Virus record (IMG/VR): IMGVR_UViG_3300021376_000028
Location: 1 to 64,000 of that record
Length of the DNA: 64,000 bases
DNA from: a virus
Direction: 5' to 3' (one strand)
Under the pieces are notes generated by a model that was not told the DNA's origin, did no database searches, and saw only the letters and a program-made list of their open reading frames with translations. Below are positions 14,383 to 22,989 of the stretch, piece after piece. Each line of letters begins with the position of its first letter. The first letter of the stretch is position 1. The translations under genes and the position numbers were made by a program.

Positions 14383-14994
14383 ATGACCACTATTGTTGCC
14401 GTTCAAGGACCAGATTATTGTGTAGTTGGTACTGACTCTAGGATTTCATCCTTTGATGAATCTGGGTTGGCTTATCAAATAACCACTTTAGGTACAGGGT
14501 CTTGTAAAATTGCACAAAAGGGTCGTTATTTGCTGGGCGCGGCGGGTGATGTTCGTGCAATAAACATACTGCACCATGCATTCACCCCGCCGATCCCGGC
14601 GTTTAGGGGCAGCGGAGAACTGCTGGATCAATTTATAACAACGAAGTTTATACCCAACTTGCAAGTTTGTTTTGAAAACACAGGATACGCAATGCCAGAC
14701 CTTGCTGAAGAGAAGACTCACATGACTGAGCAAGCTTCTACAATCTTGGTTGCTATAAATGGTGCGGTTTATATTATTGAAGGCGATTATTCTTGGACTT
14801 CAGATAGAACTGGAATTTATGCAATAGGTACTGGTTCATCATATGCGCTGGGAGCAATGCAAGCACTTAGCGGAGGAAAGGTTTTAACTGTTCAAAAAGC
14901 CAAACTGATTGCTCAAAAGTCTTTATCAATTACATCCAGATTTGATCCATACACAGGATCGCCGTTTCAGATGTTTGTTCAGGAGCAGTTTTGA
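14383..14994 (+). CDS. Proteasome beta/HslV-like Ntn hydrolase
   Basis: A 203-residue protein whose N-terminus MTTIVAVQGP is followed by CVVGTDSR. After Met removal Thr becomes residue 1, as in HslV and proteasome beta subunits, and Asp falls at position 17 of the mature chain. A Lys follows at about mature residue 41 (SCKIAQKGRYLLGAAGD), later than usual, suggesting a short insertion. GIYAIGTGSSYALGAMQAL matches the conserved HslV IGSGGxYALAAxxAL helix. These features indicate a threonine-nucleophile hydrolase, possibly a self-compartmentalised protease. No ATPase partner is encoded nearby. The fold call is strong; proteolytic activity and substrate are inferred. Confidence 0.8.
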   Translation: MTTIVAVQGPDYCVVGTDSRISSFDESGLAYQITTLGTGSCKIAQKGRYLLGAAGDVRAINILHHAFTPPIPAFRGSGELLDQFITTKFIPNLQVCFENTGYAMPDLAEEKTHMTEQASTILVAINGAVYIIEGDYSWTSDRTGIYAIGTGSSYALGAMQALSGGKVLTVQKAKLIAQKSLSITSRFDPYTGSPFQMFVQEQF

Positions 14995-17636: not shown

Positions 17637-17777
17637 AGCTGGAGTGCATGTTTGTTTACAAACTTGTACTCCAGTCTGTTAGGGTGACCTAACATGGGAT
17701 TGAGTGCGTTTCTGTGCCCGTGTGCTATTGTAAGTGTGTCGGGGCAACCGCTCCGCACTACCGAAAGGACACACACG
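17637..17777 (+). promoter_or_regulatory. Cassette 1 control region
   Basis: Inverted repeat at 17637-17674, palindrome GTTAGGGTGACCTAAC at 17678-17693, GAGTGC at 17702, TATTGT at 17726-17731. The predicted transcript starts at GTCGG, seven bases after the -10 box. In the leader, GTGTGTC can pair with GACACAC beside the GAAAGGAC ribosome site, so the site may be partly hidden. Confidence 0.8.
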
Positions 17778-18137
17778 ATGGCTACGCCACGCCCATTCAA
17801 CGACGAGCAGCGAGAGCGGTTCGCAACACTATCAGCAGGCTTCATCGCCATCCTGCTGTGGACGCCCATTATCATGAGCCTCACCGCCACCGCGCAAGCG
17901 GGGGGCGATTTCTGGGACTTCTGGTGGGCTTTCATCCTGTCCGGTCTGTTCGGGATCGTCTTTGCCCTGTTCGGGTGGATGGCTTGCGACATCCGCATGG
18001 ACTACCGGCACGAGATGGCAGACCAGTACGAGAGAGATCGTGTCTGCTCCCAATGCCACAACGCATCGCTGGACCGAACATGGCGTCGCCAGCCCAAGAC
18101 CGGACTCCTGTTCAAGACAAAGATCAAGAACCGGTGA
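17778..18137 (+). CDS. Cassette 1: two-helix membrane protein with Cys pair
   Basis: A 119-residue protein. Two transmembrane helices are clear (FIAILLWTPIIMSLTAT and FWDFWWAFILSGLFGIVFAL), followed by a cytosolic tail with VCSQCHNASLD and a basic end (KTKIKNR). The CxxCH motif could bind metal. Longer in-frame starts run back through the promoter and are artefacts; the ATG chosen follows GAAAGGACACACAC. GC-rich codons contrast with neighbouring phage genes. Function unknown; an effect on the host envelope is possible. Confidence 0.7.
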   Translation: MATPRPFNDEQRERFATLSAGFIAILLWTPIIMSLTATAQAGGDFWDFWWAFILSGLFGIVFALFGWMACDIRMDYRHEMADQYERDRVCSQCHNASLDRTWRRQPKTGLLFKTKIKNR

Positions 18138-18145
18138 CCAAATCT

Positions 18146-18181
18146 CCCCCCCTCGCCCGAACCCCCTCGGGCGAGGGGGGG
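18146..18181 (+). terminator. Cassette 1 terminator hairpin
   Basis: A 15-bp stem of CCCCCCCTCGCCCGA with TCGGGCGAGGGGGGG around ACCCCC. No U-run follows, so termination may depend on stem strength or factors. Closely related stems follow cassettes 2-7. Confidence 0.75.
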
Positions 18182-18245
18182 AACCCCCGCCGTTCTATTC
18201 AGACTGTCTAAGATATTGAATATGCAGTCTCTCTCTCCCCGTCGG

Positions 18246-18389
18246 TTGGTGTGCACGTTTGTTTACAAACTTAAGCGCCAATCTGTTAGGTATGCCTAAC
18301 GGGTCTCTTTGAGTGCGTTTCTGTGCCGGTGTGCTATTGTGAGTGTGTCGGGGAGAAACACAAGTACCCTCGGCAGGAAGGACAACACC
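18246..18389 (+). promoter_or_regulatory. Cassette 2 control region
   Basis: Boundary TTGAATATGC at 18216-18225, inverted repeat 18246-18281, palindrome GTTAGGTATGCCTAAC at 18285-18300, GAGTGC at 18311, TATTGT at 18335-18340, transcript start predicted at GTCGG (18347). Leader pairing is weaker here. Ribosome site AGGAAGGA. Confidence 0.8.
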
Positions 18390-18758
18390 ATGACCACGAA
18401 CCAGCCGACCGCCGATGCGGAGGCAATGGATGAGGGCGAGATCAAGCAAGCGTTCAGGGACGGGCGGGAAATCATCTCCGCACTCACGGACTGCATGACC
18501 AAGATCTGCTTCCACGATGGCGACCCGTACAACCAGCGCACCACGATGCTCTCCATTGCGGTGGGCAGGAACATCATCAACGAGATCCGCAGGACACACG
18601 AGATCCTCCACGATCTCGCAATGCTGATCGACGAGGACGACTACACTCTCTGGTCGCATGGCATCGCCGGGGAACTCCTCCGAGCCGGAAGGATCAGCCG
18701 AAAGGATTACTGGGACCTCTACTGCCAGGGTTGGCTCATCGACAACTGCAACTGCTGA
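18390..18758 (+). CDS. Cassette 2: hypothetical acidic protein
   Basis: A 122-residue acidic, mainly helical protein (MDEGEIKQAFRDGREIISAL, NIINEIRRTHEILHDLAMLI) with a Cys-containing DCMTKICFHDGD segment and a terminal DNCNC. Longer frames through the promoter are artefacts. GC-rich codon use. No family recognised. Confidence 0.65.
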   Translation: MTTNQPTADAEAMDEGEIKQAFRDGREIISALTDCMTKICFHDGDPYNQRTTMLSIAVGRNIINEIRRTHEILHDLAMLIDEDDYTLWSHGIAGELLRAGRISRKDYWDLYCQGWLIDNCNC

Positions 18759-18767
18759 CAACAATCT

Positions 18768-18803
18768 CCCCCCCTCGCCCCCTCCCCCTCGGGCGAGGGG
18801 GGG
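18768..18803 (+). terminator. Cassette 2 terminator hairpin
   Basis: Thirteen-bp stem CCCCCCCTCGCCC with GGGCGAGGGGGGG around a 10-base C-rich loop; no U-run. Confidence 0.75.
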
Positions 18804-18866
18804 AACCCCCACCGTTCTGACGGTGCTTCCTTATAGATTGAGTATACACAAGGATCACTTCACATC

Positions 18867-19007
18867 GGTTGGTGTGCAAGTTGGTTCACTGACTTAAACA
18901 CCAACCTTGTTAGGTATGCCTAACGGTCTCTTTGAGTGCGTTTCTATGGCGATGTGCTATTGTAAGAGTGTCGGGAGAACCCCAAGTACCTCGACGGAAA
19001 GGAAATC
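18867..19007 (+). promoter_or_regulatory. Cassette 3 control region
   Basis: Boundary TTGAGTATAC at 18838-18847, inverted repeat 18867-18906, palindrome GTTAGGTATGCCTAAC at 18909-18924, GAGTGC at 18934, TATTGT at 18958-18963. The leader begins GTCGG at 18970 and can pair with CTCGAC near the ribosome site GGAAAGGAAA. Confidence 0.8.
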
Positions 19008-19403
19008 ATGGGCGTCGTCATTGAGCCGGACTACCAGCGTCAACGCAGGGACAAGGTGATCGTGCCTTGCGAGTGCGGTGCCTCCGTGGAGGTCAACTAC
19101 GAAGACTGGTATGCAGACCAGTCGGCATGGTGCCAGGCAGGACAGCACTACTTCTACATCAGCGAGGACGAGTGGTACATCAATCCGCATGGAGTGGAGT
19201 GGCATGAGGTCCACATCACGATGGGGCGCTGGGACTGGATTCACCGGGCAATGGGGCTCGGACCCGGCAGTTGGGTTGGGTTCATGCACCCCGACATCCT
19301 CGGCGCTCTCCTGCCCCGTGCCAGCAGCGACCCGTTCTACGATGCTCTGATGAGTGTCGTGGACACCGCCCAGACTCTGAACGTCATGGTCAAGTGGTCC
19401 TGA
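19008..19403 (+). CDS. Cassette 3: hypothetical protein with zinc-ribbon-like start
   Basis: A 131-residue acidic, Trp- and His-rich protein. VIVPCECGASVEV near residue 20 and WCQAGQHYFY near residue 41 give a CxC...C...H set that could hold zinc. The later part has HEVHITMGRWDWIHRAMGLG and a Leu-rich tail. The ATG follows GGAAAGGAAATC. GC-rich codons. Function unknown. Confidence 0.65.
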   Translation: MGVVIEPDYQRQRRDKVIVPCECGASVEVNYEDWYADQSAWCQAGQHYFYISEDEWYINPHGVEWHEVHITMGRWDWIHRAMGLGPGSWVGFMHPDILGALLPRASSDPFYDALMSVVDTAQTLNVMVKWS

Positions 19404-19409
19404 AAATCT

Positions 19410-19439
19410 CCCCCCGCCCGAACCCCCTCGGGCGGGGGG
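19410..19439 (+). terminator. Cassette 3 terminator hairpin
   Basis: Twelve-bp stem CCCCCCGCCCGA with TCGGGCGGGGGG; a shorter variant without the CTCG block of cassette 1. Confidence 0.75.
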
Positions 19440-19497
19440 AACCCCCACCGATCTATACATACTGTCTGTGATATTTAATACGCAGTCTCTCTCTATC

Positions 19498-19635
19498 AGC
19501 TGGCGTGCAAGTTGGTTCACTGACTTAAACGCCAGCGTATTAGGTATGCCTAACTGGTCTCTTTGAGTGCGTTTTCGTGCTCGTGTGCTATTGTAAGTCT
19601 GTCGGGGGGACGGTCCCCACGACGGAAAGGAAAGC
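19498..19635 (+). promoter_or_regulatory. Cassette 4 control region
   Basis: Boundary TTTAATACGC at 19474-19483, inverted repeat 19498-19536, palindrome with A instead of outer G (ATTAGGTATGCCTAAC, 19539-19554), GAGTGC at 19565, TATTGT at 19589-19594. Leader hairpin 19601-19623: GTCGGGGGGAC against GTCCCCACGAC with one mismatch. Confidence 0.8.
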
Positions 19636-19947
19636 ATGGGCAAGCGCTACAACTCAACGGCGGTCATGGAGGTGTTGGTGGTGATCACCAGTAGGCTCTA
19701 CTTCACCGGCACACCATTCTCGGAGGAGGACTTCGACGAGTGGCAGTCCCGCCTGCTCGGTCTCGTCCGCGAGATGAGCGACCAACTGGACAAGGAGGAT
19801 GTCGCGGACGCCATCAATGCCGAGATCGTCCTCAAGAACGGAATGCGGTCCTACGAGGACTTGCTGCACGAGTTCAGCGAGCTCGTCAGGACTGGCATTC
19901 CCACCTGGAGAGTCGGGCTGCGTCAGATGTCTCGCTCCCCCAACTGA
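19636..19947 (+). CDS. Cassette 4: hypothetical helical protein
   Basis: A 103-residue protein, mostly helical and acidic (EEDFDEWQSRLLGLVREMSD, EDVADAINAEIVLKNGMRS) with a basic C-terminus ending RQMSRSPN. The ATG follows GGAAAGGAAAGC. Codons are GC-rich. No family recognised. Confidence 0.65.
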   Translation: MGKRYNSTAVMEVLVVITSRLYFTGTPFSEEDFDEWQSRLLGLVREMSDQLDKEDVADAINAEIVLKNGMRSYEDLLHEFSELVRTGIPTWRVGLRQMSRSPN

Positions 19948-19972
19948 CCGAATGAGCCATCACTCTCCCCCG

Positions 19973-19998
19973 CCCCCCTCGCCCTCGGGCGAGGGGGG
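19973..19998 (+). terminator. Cassette 4 terminator hairpin
   Basis: Twelve-bp stem CCCCCCTCGCCC with GGGCGAGGGGGG around a 2-base gap, so the inner pairs probably open into the loop. Confidence 0.7.
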
Positions 19999-20056
19999 AA
20001 CCCCCACCGGTTCAGGCAGACATCCATGTTGATTTAATATACGTTTTCTCCCTGTA

Positions 20057-20192
20057 AGCTGGTGTGCAAGTTGGTTTACAAACTGAAACACCAGTTCGTT
20101 AGGGCAACCTAACATGAAATTGAGTGCGTTTCCACGGTCTTATGCTATTGTAAGTGTGTCGGAGGGACGGTCTCTCCGACAGGAAGGAAACC
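20057..20192 (+). promoter_or_regulatory. Cassette 5 control region
   Basis: Boundary TTTAATATAC at 20033-20042, inverted repeat 20057-20096, palindrome GTTAGGGCAACCTAAC at 20098-20113, GAGTGC at 20122, TATTGT at 20146-20151. Leader hairpin 20158-20180 (GTCGGAGGGAC against GTCTCTCCGAC, one G-U). Ribosome site AGGAAGGAAA. Confidence 0.82.
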
Positions 20193-20375
20193 ATGCCAAT
20201 ACAATTGACCTGTCCGTACTGCGACAGGACATTCACATACGACACCGTGACATTCATCGGTGCGAGCAAGAAGATGTCCACGCACAAGGCTCGTTGCCCG
20301 AAGAAACGATACCTCGGCGGTGACTTGGAGATCGGAACAGCCGAGGATGCCCGTGAACTGCTGGAGGGGGAGTGA
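20193..20375 (+). CDS. Cassette 5a: zinc-finger protein
   Basis: A 60-residue protein with LTCPYCDRTFTYD and, about 20 residues on, THKARCPKK: a C-x2-C...H-x3-C zinc-binding pattern, probably nucleic-acid or protein binding. The tail is acidic (TAEDARELLEGE). Its stop overlaps the start of the second gene of this cassette (TGATG). This is the only cassette with two genes. Confidence 0.7.
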   Translation: MPIQLTCPYCDRTFTYDTVTFIGASKKMSTHKARCPKKRYLGGDLEIGTAEDARELLEGE

Positions 20376-20605
20376 TGACCTACGAAGACTTTGAGAGGCT
20401 CGTCCAGTCATCGTTCCCCAATGACGGCAACATCCGGTACGGACAGCATTGGTTCAACACCCTGTATTCGGTGAGGCCCGGGGTGGCTAACCTCATCAGG
20501 GGGACACTCCACGATCCTTTCCACCGAGAGAAGGTTTCAGAGCAGACGCAAGGCTATGCCCGTGCGCTCTGGAGCGACCTTCGTGCTCACGACACGGTGA
20601 ACTGA
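20375..20605 (+). CDS. Cassette 5b: hypothetical protein
   Basis: A 76-residue protein (MTYEDFERLVQSSF, then RYGQHWFNTLYSVRPGVANL and ARALWSDLRAHD). The pattern of a short N-terminal helix followed by RYGQ-WFN-L resembles small conserved phage proteins of unknown function. A GTG three bases upstream is an alternative start. It is translationally coupled to the zinc-finger gene. Confidence 0.65.
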   Translation: MTYEDFERLVQSSFPNDGNIRYGQHWFNTLYSVRPGVANLIRGTLHDPFHREKVSEQTQGYARALWSDLRAHDTVN

Positions 20606-20610
20606 ATCCT

Positions 20611-20632
20611 CCCCCCGCCCTCGGGCGGGGGG
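20611..20632 (+). terminator. Cassette 5 terminator hairpin
   Basis: Ten-bp arms CCCCCCGCCC and GGGCGGGGGG around TC; lacks the CTCG block. Confidence 0.7.
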
Positions 20633-20696
20633 AACCCCCATCCGTTCAGACAGACATCTATACTTATTTAATATATATATCTCTCTGTCTACACGC

Positions 20697-20830
20697 AGCT
20701 GGCGTGCGGGTGAGTTTACAAACTTAAACGCCAGTCCGTTAGGTTAGCCTAACAGTCTCTTTGAGTGCGTTTCTGTGCTCGTGTGCTATTGTAAAGATGT
20801 CGGGGAGACTCCCCGACGGAAAGGAAAGCA
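20697..20830 (+). promoter_or_regulatory. Cassette 6 control region
   Basis: Boundary TTTAATATAT at 20667-20676, inverted repeat 20697-20735, palindrome GTTAGGTTAGCCTAAC at 20738-20753, GAGTGC at 20763, TATTGT at 20787-20792. Leader hairpin 20799-20817 (GTCGGGGA against TCCCCGAC). Ribosome site GGAAAGGAAA. Confidence 0.82.
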
Positions 20831-21007
20831 ATGAGTAACAGACTGAGAAACGTACTCGCTAGGGTGTATTGGTACCTAACGACATTCAGGGCGCTGAAAG
20901 GATCGCACCAACCGTGTCGCCACTGCTACTTCCGTTGGCTGAACGAGAAGCGCAACCGTTGGTTGTGGTTGTGGTGCGACAACGACTGCAACTGGGGCAA
21001 CGAGTAG
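20831..21007 (+). CDS. Cassette 6: small basic protein with Cys/His and Trp
   Basis: A 58-residue gene. The start MSNRLRNVLARVYWYL gives a basic amphipathic helix, then PCRHCYFRWLNEKRNRWLWL and WCDNDCNWGNE. CxxC plus a later C-x3-C could form a zinc knuckle. Promoter, leader hairpin, ribosome site and terminator are all in place as in the other cassettes, which supports it despite its length. Function unknown. Confidence 0.7.
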   Translation: MSNRLRNVLARVYWYLTTFRALKGSHQPCRHCYFRWLNEKRNRWLWLWCDNDCNWGNE

Positions 21008-21030
21008 CCCCAACACTCGGACCAAGATCT

Positions 21031-21067
21031 CCCCCCCTCGCCCCCCTCTCCCTCGGGCGAGGGGGGG
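21031..21067 (+). terminator. Cassette 6 terminator hairpin
   Basis: Thirteen-bp stem CCCCCCCTCGCCC with GGGCGAGGGGGGG around an 11-base pyrimidine loop. Confidence 0.75.
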
Positions 21068-21125
21068 AACCCCGACCGGTCTAGGCAGTCTGTCTATAAT
21101 GTTTAATATACAGCCTTCCTTCATC

Positions 21126-21261
21126 AGCTGGCGTGCGAGTTAGTTCACTGACTTAAACGCCAGCCTGTTAGGGGCACCTAACGGTCTCTTTGAGTGCGTT
21201 TCTGTGCCGGTGTGCTATTGTAAGTGTGTCGGCGGGACGGTCCCGCCGACAGAAAGGCACC
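21126..21261 (+). promoter_or_regulatory. Cassette 7 control region
   Basis: Boundary TTTAATATAC at 21102-21111, inverted repeat 21126-21164, palindrome GTTAGGGGCACCTAAC at 21167-21182, GAGTGC at 21192, TATTGT at 21216-21221. Leader hairpin 21228-21250, a perfect GTCGGCGGG/CCCGCCGAC stem. Ribosome site GAAAGG. Confidence 0.82.
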
Positions 21262-21597
21262 ATGAACAAGGTGAAAATCAACGGGCGATGGGTGAGCGCA
21301 AGCAACCCTCCCACAATAAGCGAAGTGTGGCACCTAGTGCTACCGGCGAAGCACGATGCGATCCGGACACTTACCAACCTCATCGCCGGACTGGAGACCC
21401 TGGTGGTGGCGTTGGAAGCCCTGCTCGCTGAACACCCATACGAGATCCAGGACCCCAGGACAGCCTTGCTATGGGAGAAGCACCACGCCCGGATCACTCG
21501 GGAAATCGGCAAGAACCAACGAGAGCGGAACGCCGCCAAGTTGCGCTACCGGCAGATGGTCCAAGTGCTGGAGTGGTACGACAACAGCGTGTCCTGA
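21262..21597 (+). CDS. Cassette 7: helical hypothetical protein
   Basis: A 111-residue, mainly alpha-helical protein with a Leu-rich core (TLTNLIAGLETLVVALEALL) and a basic helix (HHARITREIGKNQRERNAAK). The heptad-like spacing suggests a coiled-coil dimer; basic residues could bind nucleic acid. GC-rich codons. No family recognised. Confidence 0.65.
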   Translation: MNKVKINGRWVSASNPPTISEVWHLVLPAKHDAIRTLTNLIAGLETLVVALEALLAEHPYEIQDPRTALLWEKHHARITREIGKNQRERNAAKLRYRQMVQVLEWYDNSVS

Positions 21598-21610
21598 ACA
21601 CGCCCCCTGC

Positions 21611-21638
21611 CCCCCCCTCGCCTTCGGGCGAGGGGGGG
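21611..21638 (+). terminator. Cassette 7 terminator hairpin
   Basis: Twelve-bp stem CCCCCCCTCGCC with GGCGAGGGGGGG closed by a very stable TTCG tetraloop; no U-run. Confidence 0.75.
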
Positions 21639-21673
21639 AACCCCCACCGATCCAGTCACATCAACACATTAAA

Positions 21674-21766
21674 TTGAATATACGGTTTCTCTCACTTCAT
21701 CAGCTGGCGTGCAGGTCGGCTTACTGACTTAAACGCCAACTCATACAGACAGGCCAGACTCTTATA
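21674..21766 (+). repeat. Orphan boundary and inverted repeat with no gene
   Basis: TTGAATATAC at 21674-21683 and the inverted repeat at 21702-21740 are as in other cassettes, but palindrome, promoter and gene are missing. The following ACAGACAGGCCAGACT resembles the tail that normally follows a cassette terminator (CAGACAGACATC in cassette 5). The next boundary motif starts at 21767. This looks like a cassette whose centre was deleted. Confidence 0.7.
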
Positions 21767-21789
21767 TTTAATATACACTTTCTCCCTGT

Positions 21790-21892
21790 AAGCTGGTGTG
21801 TACGAGCTTTAGCGAAGTTAAACACCAGCTTTGTTAGGTTCACCTAATAAAAAAAAGAGTGCGTTTTTGTGACGGTGTGCTATTGTAAGGGC
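21790..21892 (+). promoter_or_regulatory. Cassette 8 control region (leaderless type)
   Basis: Boundary TTTAATATAC at 21767-21776, inverted repeat 21790-21831, half-palindrome GTTAGGTTCACCTAAT at 21833-21848, GAGTGC at 21857, TATTGT at 21881-21886. The ATG begins exactly seven bases after the -10 box, where the other cassettes begin their transcript, so the mRNA is predicted to be leaderless. Confidence 0.8.
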
Positions 21893-22276
21893 ATGGCAAA
21901 CAAGCCGGAGCCGACCGCTAAGGCGGAGGACAACAACAACAACCACAGCAAGCCGAGGAAGATCAACCTCTCCGAACTGAAAGGCACGGTGTCCCCACGG
22001 GGGCGCAAGCCCTACACGGACGAGGCGTTGGTCCAGTACCTCACGGAGATGGTGCAGGACGGAGAGGGCTTCGGACTGGACGCTCCCTACGAGGTCACCG
22101 ACGACATGCGCAAGGGCACCCCACGGGGCGTGAAGGCGCAGAACCGCGAGCGTGCCAAGTGGCGCAACCGCATCGTGTCGGTGTGGACCTCCACGCTCGG
22201 CAGGGACAAGGGCGAGATCACCGTCGGGTGGACCTCGGAGCACGAGGTCACCGTCTCCCTCAGGAACAAGGCGTAG
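21893..22276 (+). CDS. Cassette 8: hypothetical protein, paralogue of cassette 9
   Basis: A 127-residue protein with a charged, Asn-rich N-terminus, then KPRKINLSELKGTVSPRGRK, EGFGLDAPYEV, a basic AQNRERAKWRNRIVSVW helix and ITVGWTSEHEVTVSL. Cassette 9 shares the same order of KINLS-LKG, RGRK-Y, YL-EMV, EGFG, AKWRNRIVS and SWT-AHE, so the two arose by duplication. The basic RGRK and KWRNR segments suggest nucleic-acid binding. No known family recognised. Confidence 0.7.
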   Translation: MANKPEPTAKAEDNNNNHSKPRKINLSELKGTVSPRGRKPYTDEALVQYLTEMVQDGEGFGLDAPYEVTDDMRKGTPRGVKAQNRERAKWRNRIVSVWTSTLGRDKGEITVGWTSEHEVTVSLRNKA

Positions 22277-22286
22277 AAAGGCGCTG

Positions 22287-22333
22287 AAAAACCGCAAGGT
22301 TTTTACCCTCCCCTTCGGGGGAGGTTTTTTTTT
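22287..22333 (+). terminator. Cassette 8 double terminator
   Basis: AAAAACC-GCAA-GGTTTTT is followed by CCTCCCC-TTCG-GGGGAGG and nine T. Unlike cassettes 1-7, this is a classical U-run terminator. Confidence 0.9.
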
Positions 22334-22344
22334 GTCCAAAATCG

Positions 22345-22380
22345 TTGGCGTTCAAGATGCTGAAGCATCTTGAACGCCAA
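22345..22380 (+). repeat. Perfect inverted repeat after cassette 8
   Basis: TTGGCGTTCAAGATGC and its exact complement surround TGAA (16-bp arms). The same 36 bases, with the preceding T-run and TGTCCAAAATCG, recur at 22954-22989. Confidence 0.92.
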
Positions 22381-22434
22381 TCCGTACAAGGCAACGCTCT
22401 CTTCCCTTGAATACATTTTCCTAACTTACTTGAG

Positions 22435-22538
22435 AAGCTGGTGTTCAATAGCTTTAGCTAAATTGAACACCAGCGATGTTAGGCTGACCTAATAAGAAAA
22501 TGAGTGCGTTTTCGTGCCGGTGTGCTATTGTAGGAGTC
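22435..22538 (+). promoter_or_regulatory. Cassette 9 control region (leaderless type)
   Basis: Boundary TTGAATACAT at 22407-22416, inverted repeat 22435-22474, half-palindrome GTTAGGCTGACCTAAT at 22478-22493, GAGTGC at 22502, TATTGT at 22526-22531. The ATG lies eight bases after the -10 box; AGGAG lies in between, but little or no leader would exist. Confidence 0.8.
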
Positions 22539-22886
22539 ATGGCAACCAATGCCGGTGACCGCAATAGCGGAACCAACCCAAAGAAAATCAACCTGTCCGA
22601 CCTGAAAGGTAAGACTTCCCAACGGGGGCGCAAGCGGTACGCAAACGCCACCCTCACGGAATACCTGAGGGAAATGGTGAGCACACGGGAAGGCTTCGGT
22701 GTTCCCGAACTCTTGACCGTGACTCCCAAGACAACGGAGAAGCAAATCCAGACCCAAAAAGCAAAGTGGCGCAACCGCATTGTGTCATTGTTTGAGGAAC
22801 TGAACTTCCCGGGACACCGCATCAGTATTTCGTGGACGGACGCTCACGAAATGGTCGTGGAAATGGTTGAGACCACCGAAGGCTGA
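22539..22886 (+). CDS. Cassette 9: hypothetical protein, paralogue of cassette 8
   Basis: A 115-residue protein with KKINLSDLKGKTSQRGRKRY, EYLREMVSTREGFGVPELL, KAKWRNRIVSLFEEL and SISWTDAHEMVVEM. It follows the cassette 8 protein segment by segment. Basic motifs again suggest nucleic-acid binding. Codons are slightly less GC-rich than in cassette 8. Function unknown. Confidence 0.7.
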   Translation: MATNAGDRNSGTNPKKINLSDLKGKTSQRGRKRYANATLTEYLREMVSTREGFGVPELLTVTPKTTEKQIQTQKAKWRNRIVSLFEELNFPGHRISISWTDAHEMVVEMVETTEG

Positions 22887-22953: not shown

Positions 22954-22989
22954 TTGGCGTTCAAGATGCTGAAGCATCTTGAACGCCAA
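22954..22989 (+). repeat. Perfect inverted repeat after cassette 9
   Basis: Identical to the one at 22345-22380. A boundary motif TTGAGTATAC follows at 23016-23025, but no cassette. Confidence 0.92.

Follow-up and report, generated by a model that had tools for sequence, protein, structure and literature searches.

Predicted 5' leader hairpins in an array of individually promoted small-gene cassettes of a freshwater phage

The mRNAs of a phage array of small-gene cassettes are predicted to carry hairpins in their leaders, variable in sequence and constant in placement, between the predicted transcription start (+1) and the ribosome site (SD). Judged from sequence, it is very probable that these hairpins are real RNA structures. 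The fuller statement, that real hairpins stand in the leaders of the cassette mRNAs and that they form a constitutive protective leader module, we hold at a probability of roughly 0.55. RNA structure is well supported by comparison with shuffled sequences, by the positions at which stems start and end, by compensatory changes, and by a polymorphism that converts a G-U pair to G-C.

The cassette array, its promoters and its phage

The window (the 64,000-nt stretch of DNA analysed here) is contained in an 85,677-base virus record of a freshwater phage. Because the phage's DNA polymerase finds its closest counterparts in Streptomyces phages (~37% identity) and the phage encodes both a proteasome-family protein (PF00227, 14383–14994; relatives of at least 49% identity in 39 IMG/VR loci) and a PF06737 transglycosylase, the host is likely an actinobacterium. 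The GC content is 55–58% at 17.6–22.95 kb compared with mostly 33–43% in the rest of the genome, and this GC-rich segment comprises nine small-gene cassettes with one promoter each. It is an array of individually promoted and terminated cassettes giving short mRNAs. Three further IMG/VR contigs carry the array at ~99.9% identity, and it is therefore not an assembly artefact. Exact matches to the promoter, GAGTGCGTTT-n10-TGCTATTGT, number nine against 0 expected from shuffles; every one lies within 17702–22531, and the rest of the 85.7-kb record has none.

17702–17731, + strand: promoter 1 (GAGTGCGTTT ... TGC TATTGT), exact match
18311–18340, 18934–18963, 19565–19594 and 20122–20151: promoters 2–5, same element, exact match
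20763–20792, 21192–21221, 21857–21886 and 22502–22531: promoters 6–9, same element, exact match
17778–18137, + strand: cassette 1 gene, 119 aa, with hydrophobic segments and a weak holin-like match in Pfam, below threshold (E 0.0044)
18390–18758, + strand: cassette 2 gene, 122 aa, no family
19008–19403, + strand: cassette 3 gene, 131 aa, no family
19636–19947, + strand: cassette 4 gene, 103 aa, no family
20193–20605, + strand: cassette 5, two overlapping genes of 60 aa (CxxC...H..C zinc-finger-like pattern) and 76 aa
20831–21007, + strand: cassette 6 gene, 58 aa, no family
21262–21597, + strand: cassette 7 gene, 111 aa, no family
21893–22276, + strand: cassette 8 gene, predicted leaderless, family A1, ATG at the 7th base after the −10
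22539–22886, + strand: cassette 9 gene, predicted leaderless, family A1, ATG at the 8th base after the −10

A diverged but collinear relative, IMGVR_UViG_3300047564_004285 (L049, L085), was found through the proteasome-like gene at 14383–14994. It matches the order of the window on both flanks of the array and carries 12 cassettes in the same genomic slot, eight with hairpin leaders and four with leaderless starts. Its promoter, in which AGTACCCATTTT is separated by roughly ten bases from TTATAGT or a close variant, is entirely unlike that of the window, although the promoters of both phages have a TGN extended −10. Family A1 unites the genes of cassettes 8 and 9 with three from the relative; apart from A1, the cassette genes have no clear similarity between the two phages.

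The leaderless cassettes indirectly fix the predicted +1. Their ATG stands at the common predicted +1 in five of six cases, and the position of +1 is consistent in 19 of 21 cassettes across both phages. A sequence-only reading of this DNA, whose quoted sequences are all present, had placed a GTCGG start seven bases after the −10 in cassettes 1–7, and the G is indeed exactly the seventh base after TATTGT. As the ATG of cassette 8 begins at that same base and that of cassette 9 one base later, +1 at this G is supported, and start sites that would exclude the hairpin were not found.

Annotated phages searched at the nucleotide level gave no match, and the exact promoter-pattern search recovered near-identical contigs as the only relatives; one match (L007) was put down to chance, and those in L008–L010, L044 and L045 were taken as isolated single matches. 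Protein searches with the leaderless gene family matched the two phages only. More distant relatives of the proteasome gene (L059, L063, L069, L073, L082) contain repeats, not such arrays. The related-phage contigs closest to the relative (L048, L050–L052), together with L100, break off on reaching the array slot or shortly before it, which would fit an array that is strain-variable or hard to assemble.

The leader hairpins and the evidence for RNA structure

A stem begins at the predicted +1 in all seven window leaders (W1–W7, cassettes 1–7). In six of the seven, the stem end is followed by one base and then GAAAGG or GGAAGG, with 4–9 bases between this motif and the ATG in the window leaders.

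17738–17758, + strand: leader hairpin W1 (GTCGGGGCAACCGCTCCGCAC; GT-CGGGGC/GCTCCG-C-AC), shuffle p 0.017
18347–18374, + strand: leader hairpin W2 (GTCGGGG/CCTCGGC, 7 bp; 14-nt A-rich loop), shuffle p 0.023
18970–18995, + strand: leader hairpin W3 (GTCGGG/CTCGAC, 6 bp), shuffle p 0.10, alone not significant
19601–19623, + strand: leader hairpin W4 (stem of 4 bp and 5 bp on either side of a G.A mismatch; CGG loop), shuffle p 0.049
20158–20180, + strand: leader hairpin W5 (10 bp; CGG loop), shuffle p 0.001
20799–20817, + strand: leader hairpin W6 (8 bp; GAC loop), shuffle p 0.003
21228–21250, + strand: leader hairpin W7 (10 bp; CGG loop), shuffle p 0.0005

For cassettes 4–7 these folds bear out the stem-loop proposed earlier, which opens at +1 and ends just before the ribosome site, and the differing stems of cassettes 5, 6 and 7 and the ACGGT loop of cassettes 4, 5 and 7 had been read correctly. 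The restriction of hairpins to those four cassettes was too narrow, as cassettes 1–3 fold from +1 too, with stems that contain G-U pairs or a bulge. In the relative, leaders Mc and Mf start with GTCGGG as in the window, and Mi starts with GTTGAGATAATCCCGTCTCAAC and forms a perfect stem of different sequence. Leaders Ma, Mb, Me and Mh represent another type, in which a 4–5-bp stem begins about eight bases in and encloses a conserved GAACAAACGA-like loop.

The fold energy of each leader was compared with 2000 dinucleotide shuffles, and the per-leader p values were combined by Fisher's method. The hairpins are stronger than the shuffles in the window (P 7e-9), in the relative (2e-4) and in the combined set of 15 leaders, seven from the window and eight from the relative (~3e-11). 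Several single leaders are not significant, and Mh (p 0.39) and Mb (p 0.19) are weak alone. As to position, 10 of the 15 leaders pair +1 with one of the last six bases preceding the SD, versus 2.4 expected (P 1.6e-6), a pairing present in all seven window leaders and absent from Ma, Mb, Me, Mh and Ml. All stems end 1–5 nt before the SD, and 11 of 15 end exactly 1 nt before it versus 2.8 expected (P ~3.4e-6).

Arms swapped between leaders pair worse than a leader's own, with the observed value reached in 24 of 5040 permutations for the window set and in 5 of 200000 over ten leaders. Compensatory changes affect four of seven stem pairs in an alignment of W2–W7 with Mi (arms only, with a constant linker between them), where the covariation score was reached by 0 of 500 shuffles, and three of four stem pairs in Ma, Mb, Me and Mh, where it was reached by 10 of 500. 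The earlier argument from covariation thus holds in a larger alignment that includes the relative. These scores carry a bias that survives the controls, since the stems were first inferred from the very sequences on which they were then scored; it is eased by the second phage and by slid registers, every one of which the covariation exceeds in both leader types. The leaders compared are paralogues from only two phage lineages and are too dissimilar in sequence for a covariance model. Among the near-identical contigs the sole leader polymorphism, T18991C in W3 (IMGVR_UViG_3300021093_000148), turns a G-U pair into G-C.

Two explanations that would dispense with RNA structure have to be set against these results. 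Hairpins might arise by chance in so GC-rich a stretch (55–58%), and GC-rich shuffles of the leaders do fold as well; however, the shuffle comparison, the arm swaps and the positional tests all lie above chance, as do the hairpins of the relative, which is AT-richer than the window array. Chance is, in our estimation, an extremely improbable source of the stems. Alternatively, the inverted repeats could be DNA operators for a repressor acting at +1, as their dyad symmetry and location at the start site would suit. Yet the seven copies vary in stem sequence and in arm spacing (3 to 14 nt), more variation than a single DNA-binding protein would be expected to accept, and what is conserved is pairing rather than sequence. 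Operators at these positions therefore strike us as highly improbable.

Protection, translation and other possible roles

As to function, we tentatively propose, with somewhat less than even confidence, a constitutive 5' leader whose role is to protect the mRNA without closing off the ribosome site. The stem starts at the fixed, predicted +1, or eight bases after it in one leader type, and ends 1–5 bases before the SD. A 5' end paired in this way would hinder 5'-end-dependent decay (RppH/RNase E or RNase J), the ribosome would be offered an exposed site directly 3' of the stem, and any gene placed in a cassette would be robustly expressed. In Escherichia coli, 5'-terminal stem-loops stabilise mRNA, and hairpins near the 5' end do likewise in Bacillus (reviewed in PMC3997798). 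In Mycobacterium smegmatis, a 5' UTR with two hairpins gave a reporter no stabilisation, and 5' UTR hairpins were uncorrelated with half-life (PMC11728522); whether the stabilisation analogy holds may thus depend on the host. Furthermore, Ma, Mb, Me and Mh have about eight unpaired 5' bases, so capping of the 5' end is not the job of every leader.

This last point brings in a serious competitor, as the feature that the leaders share is the SD junction and not the paired 5' end. The hairpin could act in translation initiation, as a fixed structural stop directly upstream of the SD that either shields this site from the differing coding sequences or serves as a dock for the 30S subunit. The junction, exactly 1 nt in 11 of 15 leaders, is common to both leader types even where the 5' end is free, and an insulator would suit genes that are mutually unrelated, as those behind the hairpins are. 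Insulation is nonetheless weakly supported by prediction: mean SD accessibility is 0.67 for native leaders, 0.71 without the hairpin and 0.63 for shuffled leaders, and the native values are not clearly above the shuffled ones (Wilcoxon P 0.39; Fisher 0.035, a value due to W4 and W6). We consider a role in initiation possible, if rather doubtful.

The loops raise the question of a phage or host RNA-binding protein that would control the cassettes jointly. CGG recurs in W4, W5 and W7, and a GAAC-A-rich loop in Ma, Mb, Me and Mh; W2, W3 and Mc, from both phages, have related A-rich loops that contain AAGTA. Loop length nevertheless ranges from 3 to 14 nt, no one loop is common to all leaders of one phage, the SD is not overlapped, and no Rfam match was found; recognition by such a protein is unlikely.

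A regulatory switch, thermometer or attenuator is also unlikely, given that the SD is uncovered and its predicted accessibility hardly changed. No Rfam family scored above its gathering score for the leaders, and with the SD not sequestered a riboswitch or RNA thermometer was rejected. The stems are followed by purine-rich GGAAAGG with no U-run, for which reason an intrinsic terminator or attenuator was rejected, and the leader hairpins are absent from the terminator scan. This leaves a constitutive leader as the most likely role.

Known systems and further features of the array

Stem-loops in 5' leaders are already known; here they form a repeated module interleaved with predicted leaderless genes. 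The phage T7 gene 10 mRNA, made by the phage polymerase, has a small 5' hairpin followed by the ribosome site, and the array leaders are like it in layout. The 5' stem-loops of ompA and papA of E. coli, also when appended to bla, similarly place a stem at the extreme 5' end with an exposed ribosome site downstream (PMC3997798). By that comparison, 10 of 15 leaders, including all window ones, have a stem at or near the predicted mRNA 5' end, and the ribosome site lies outside the stem. Unlike the ompA type, the device is repeated here with differing sequence throughout a single phage array, ahead of many unrelated genes, and about eight 5' bases stay free in one of the leader types.

Among actinobacterial phages, cluster K mycobacteriophages likewise have repeated elements with inverted repeats (SAS/ESAS) just upstream of many small genes (PMC3203893). 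The SAS is a fixed 13-bp sequence, GGGATAGGAGCCC, beside the start codon (PMC3203893), for which we found 0 matches allowing up to two mismatches. Pope et al. saw little evidence that the ESAS repeats pair as RNA (PMC3203893), whereas the leader inverted repeats here do support pairing. Actinobacterial leaderless mRNAs (PMC4633059) would be matched by cassettes 8 and 9 together with four of the relative's cassettes, which have ATG at the predicted +1; what differs is that predicted leaderless starts and hairpin leaders occur under a single promoter type within one array. No published description of such an array was found in a literature search that took in few of the subscription journals.

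The host-takeover module of phage SPO1 is a cluster of small early genes. Modules of this type likewise hold many small genes of uncharacterised function, but the present array has one promoter and one terminator per cassette.

Some 15 small leader hairpins thus come as a natural library, and the leaderless cassettes behind the same promoter can serve as its controls. It makes mRNA protection and translation help by 5' hairpins directly testable in actinobacteria, where published evidence on 5' hairpins is negative for one host gene. The leader parts could be usable as compact expression leaders.

Terminators and inter-cassette repeats complete the picture of the array.

18153–18181, + strand: terminator-like hairpin downstream of cassette 1, GC-rich and lacking a U-run
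17639–17674, 18246–18281, 18869–18904, 19500–19535, 20059–20094 and 20699–20734: 36-nt inverted repeats
21128–21163, 21793–21828, 22345–22380, 22438–22473 and 22954–22989: 36-nt inverted repeats, continued

Similar very GC-rich hairpins, also lacking a U-run, follow cassettes 2–7, and in cassettes 1–7 AACCCC comes after the hairpin; cassettes 8 and 9, unlike these, have ordinary U-run terminators. The 36-nt inverted repeat (CTGGYGT...ACRCCAG; 37 nt in the relative, L049 and L085) is located in the spaces separating cassettes and forms no part of the predicted transcripts. In 10 of 10 tested window copies the 7-bp outer arm is paired, and compensatory changes occur among them; two positions further in are unpaired for the most part. 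The repeat is possibly a folded single-stranded DNA site or a cassette boundary. It is an unlikely thought that the arrays are exchangeable cassette platforms, each unit made of a phage-specific promoter, a structure-conserved leader hairpin or leaderless start, a small unrelated gene and a terminator, with the covarying 36/37-nt repeats as sites of exchange or of folded-ssDNA handling; it would then be the leader hairpin that allows any newly arrived gene to be expressed.

Promoters are uniform within each phage and entirely different between the two, though the arrays occupy the same slot (17702–22531; 15800–20080 in L049). This suggests concerted change or a phage-specific regulator. A palindrome, TTAGGNNNNCCTAA, lies upstream of nine of nine window promoters (for example, 20738–20753), and none was seen upstream of the relative's promoters. 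It resembles DtxR/IdeR iron boxes and is possibly a phage-specific operator.

Finally, codon usage sets the cassette genes apart. GC3 is 0.79 in the cassette genes (17778–22886) versus 0.31 in ten other window genes, and 0.53 versus 0.27 in the relative. The six phage tRNAs read mostly A/T-ending codons. The array may follow the codon usage of the host so as to be expressed before the phage tRNAs come into play, or it may be foreign in origin.
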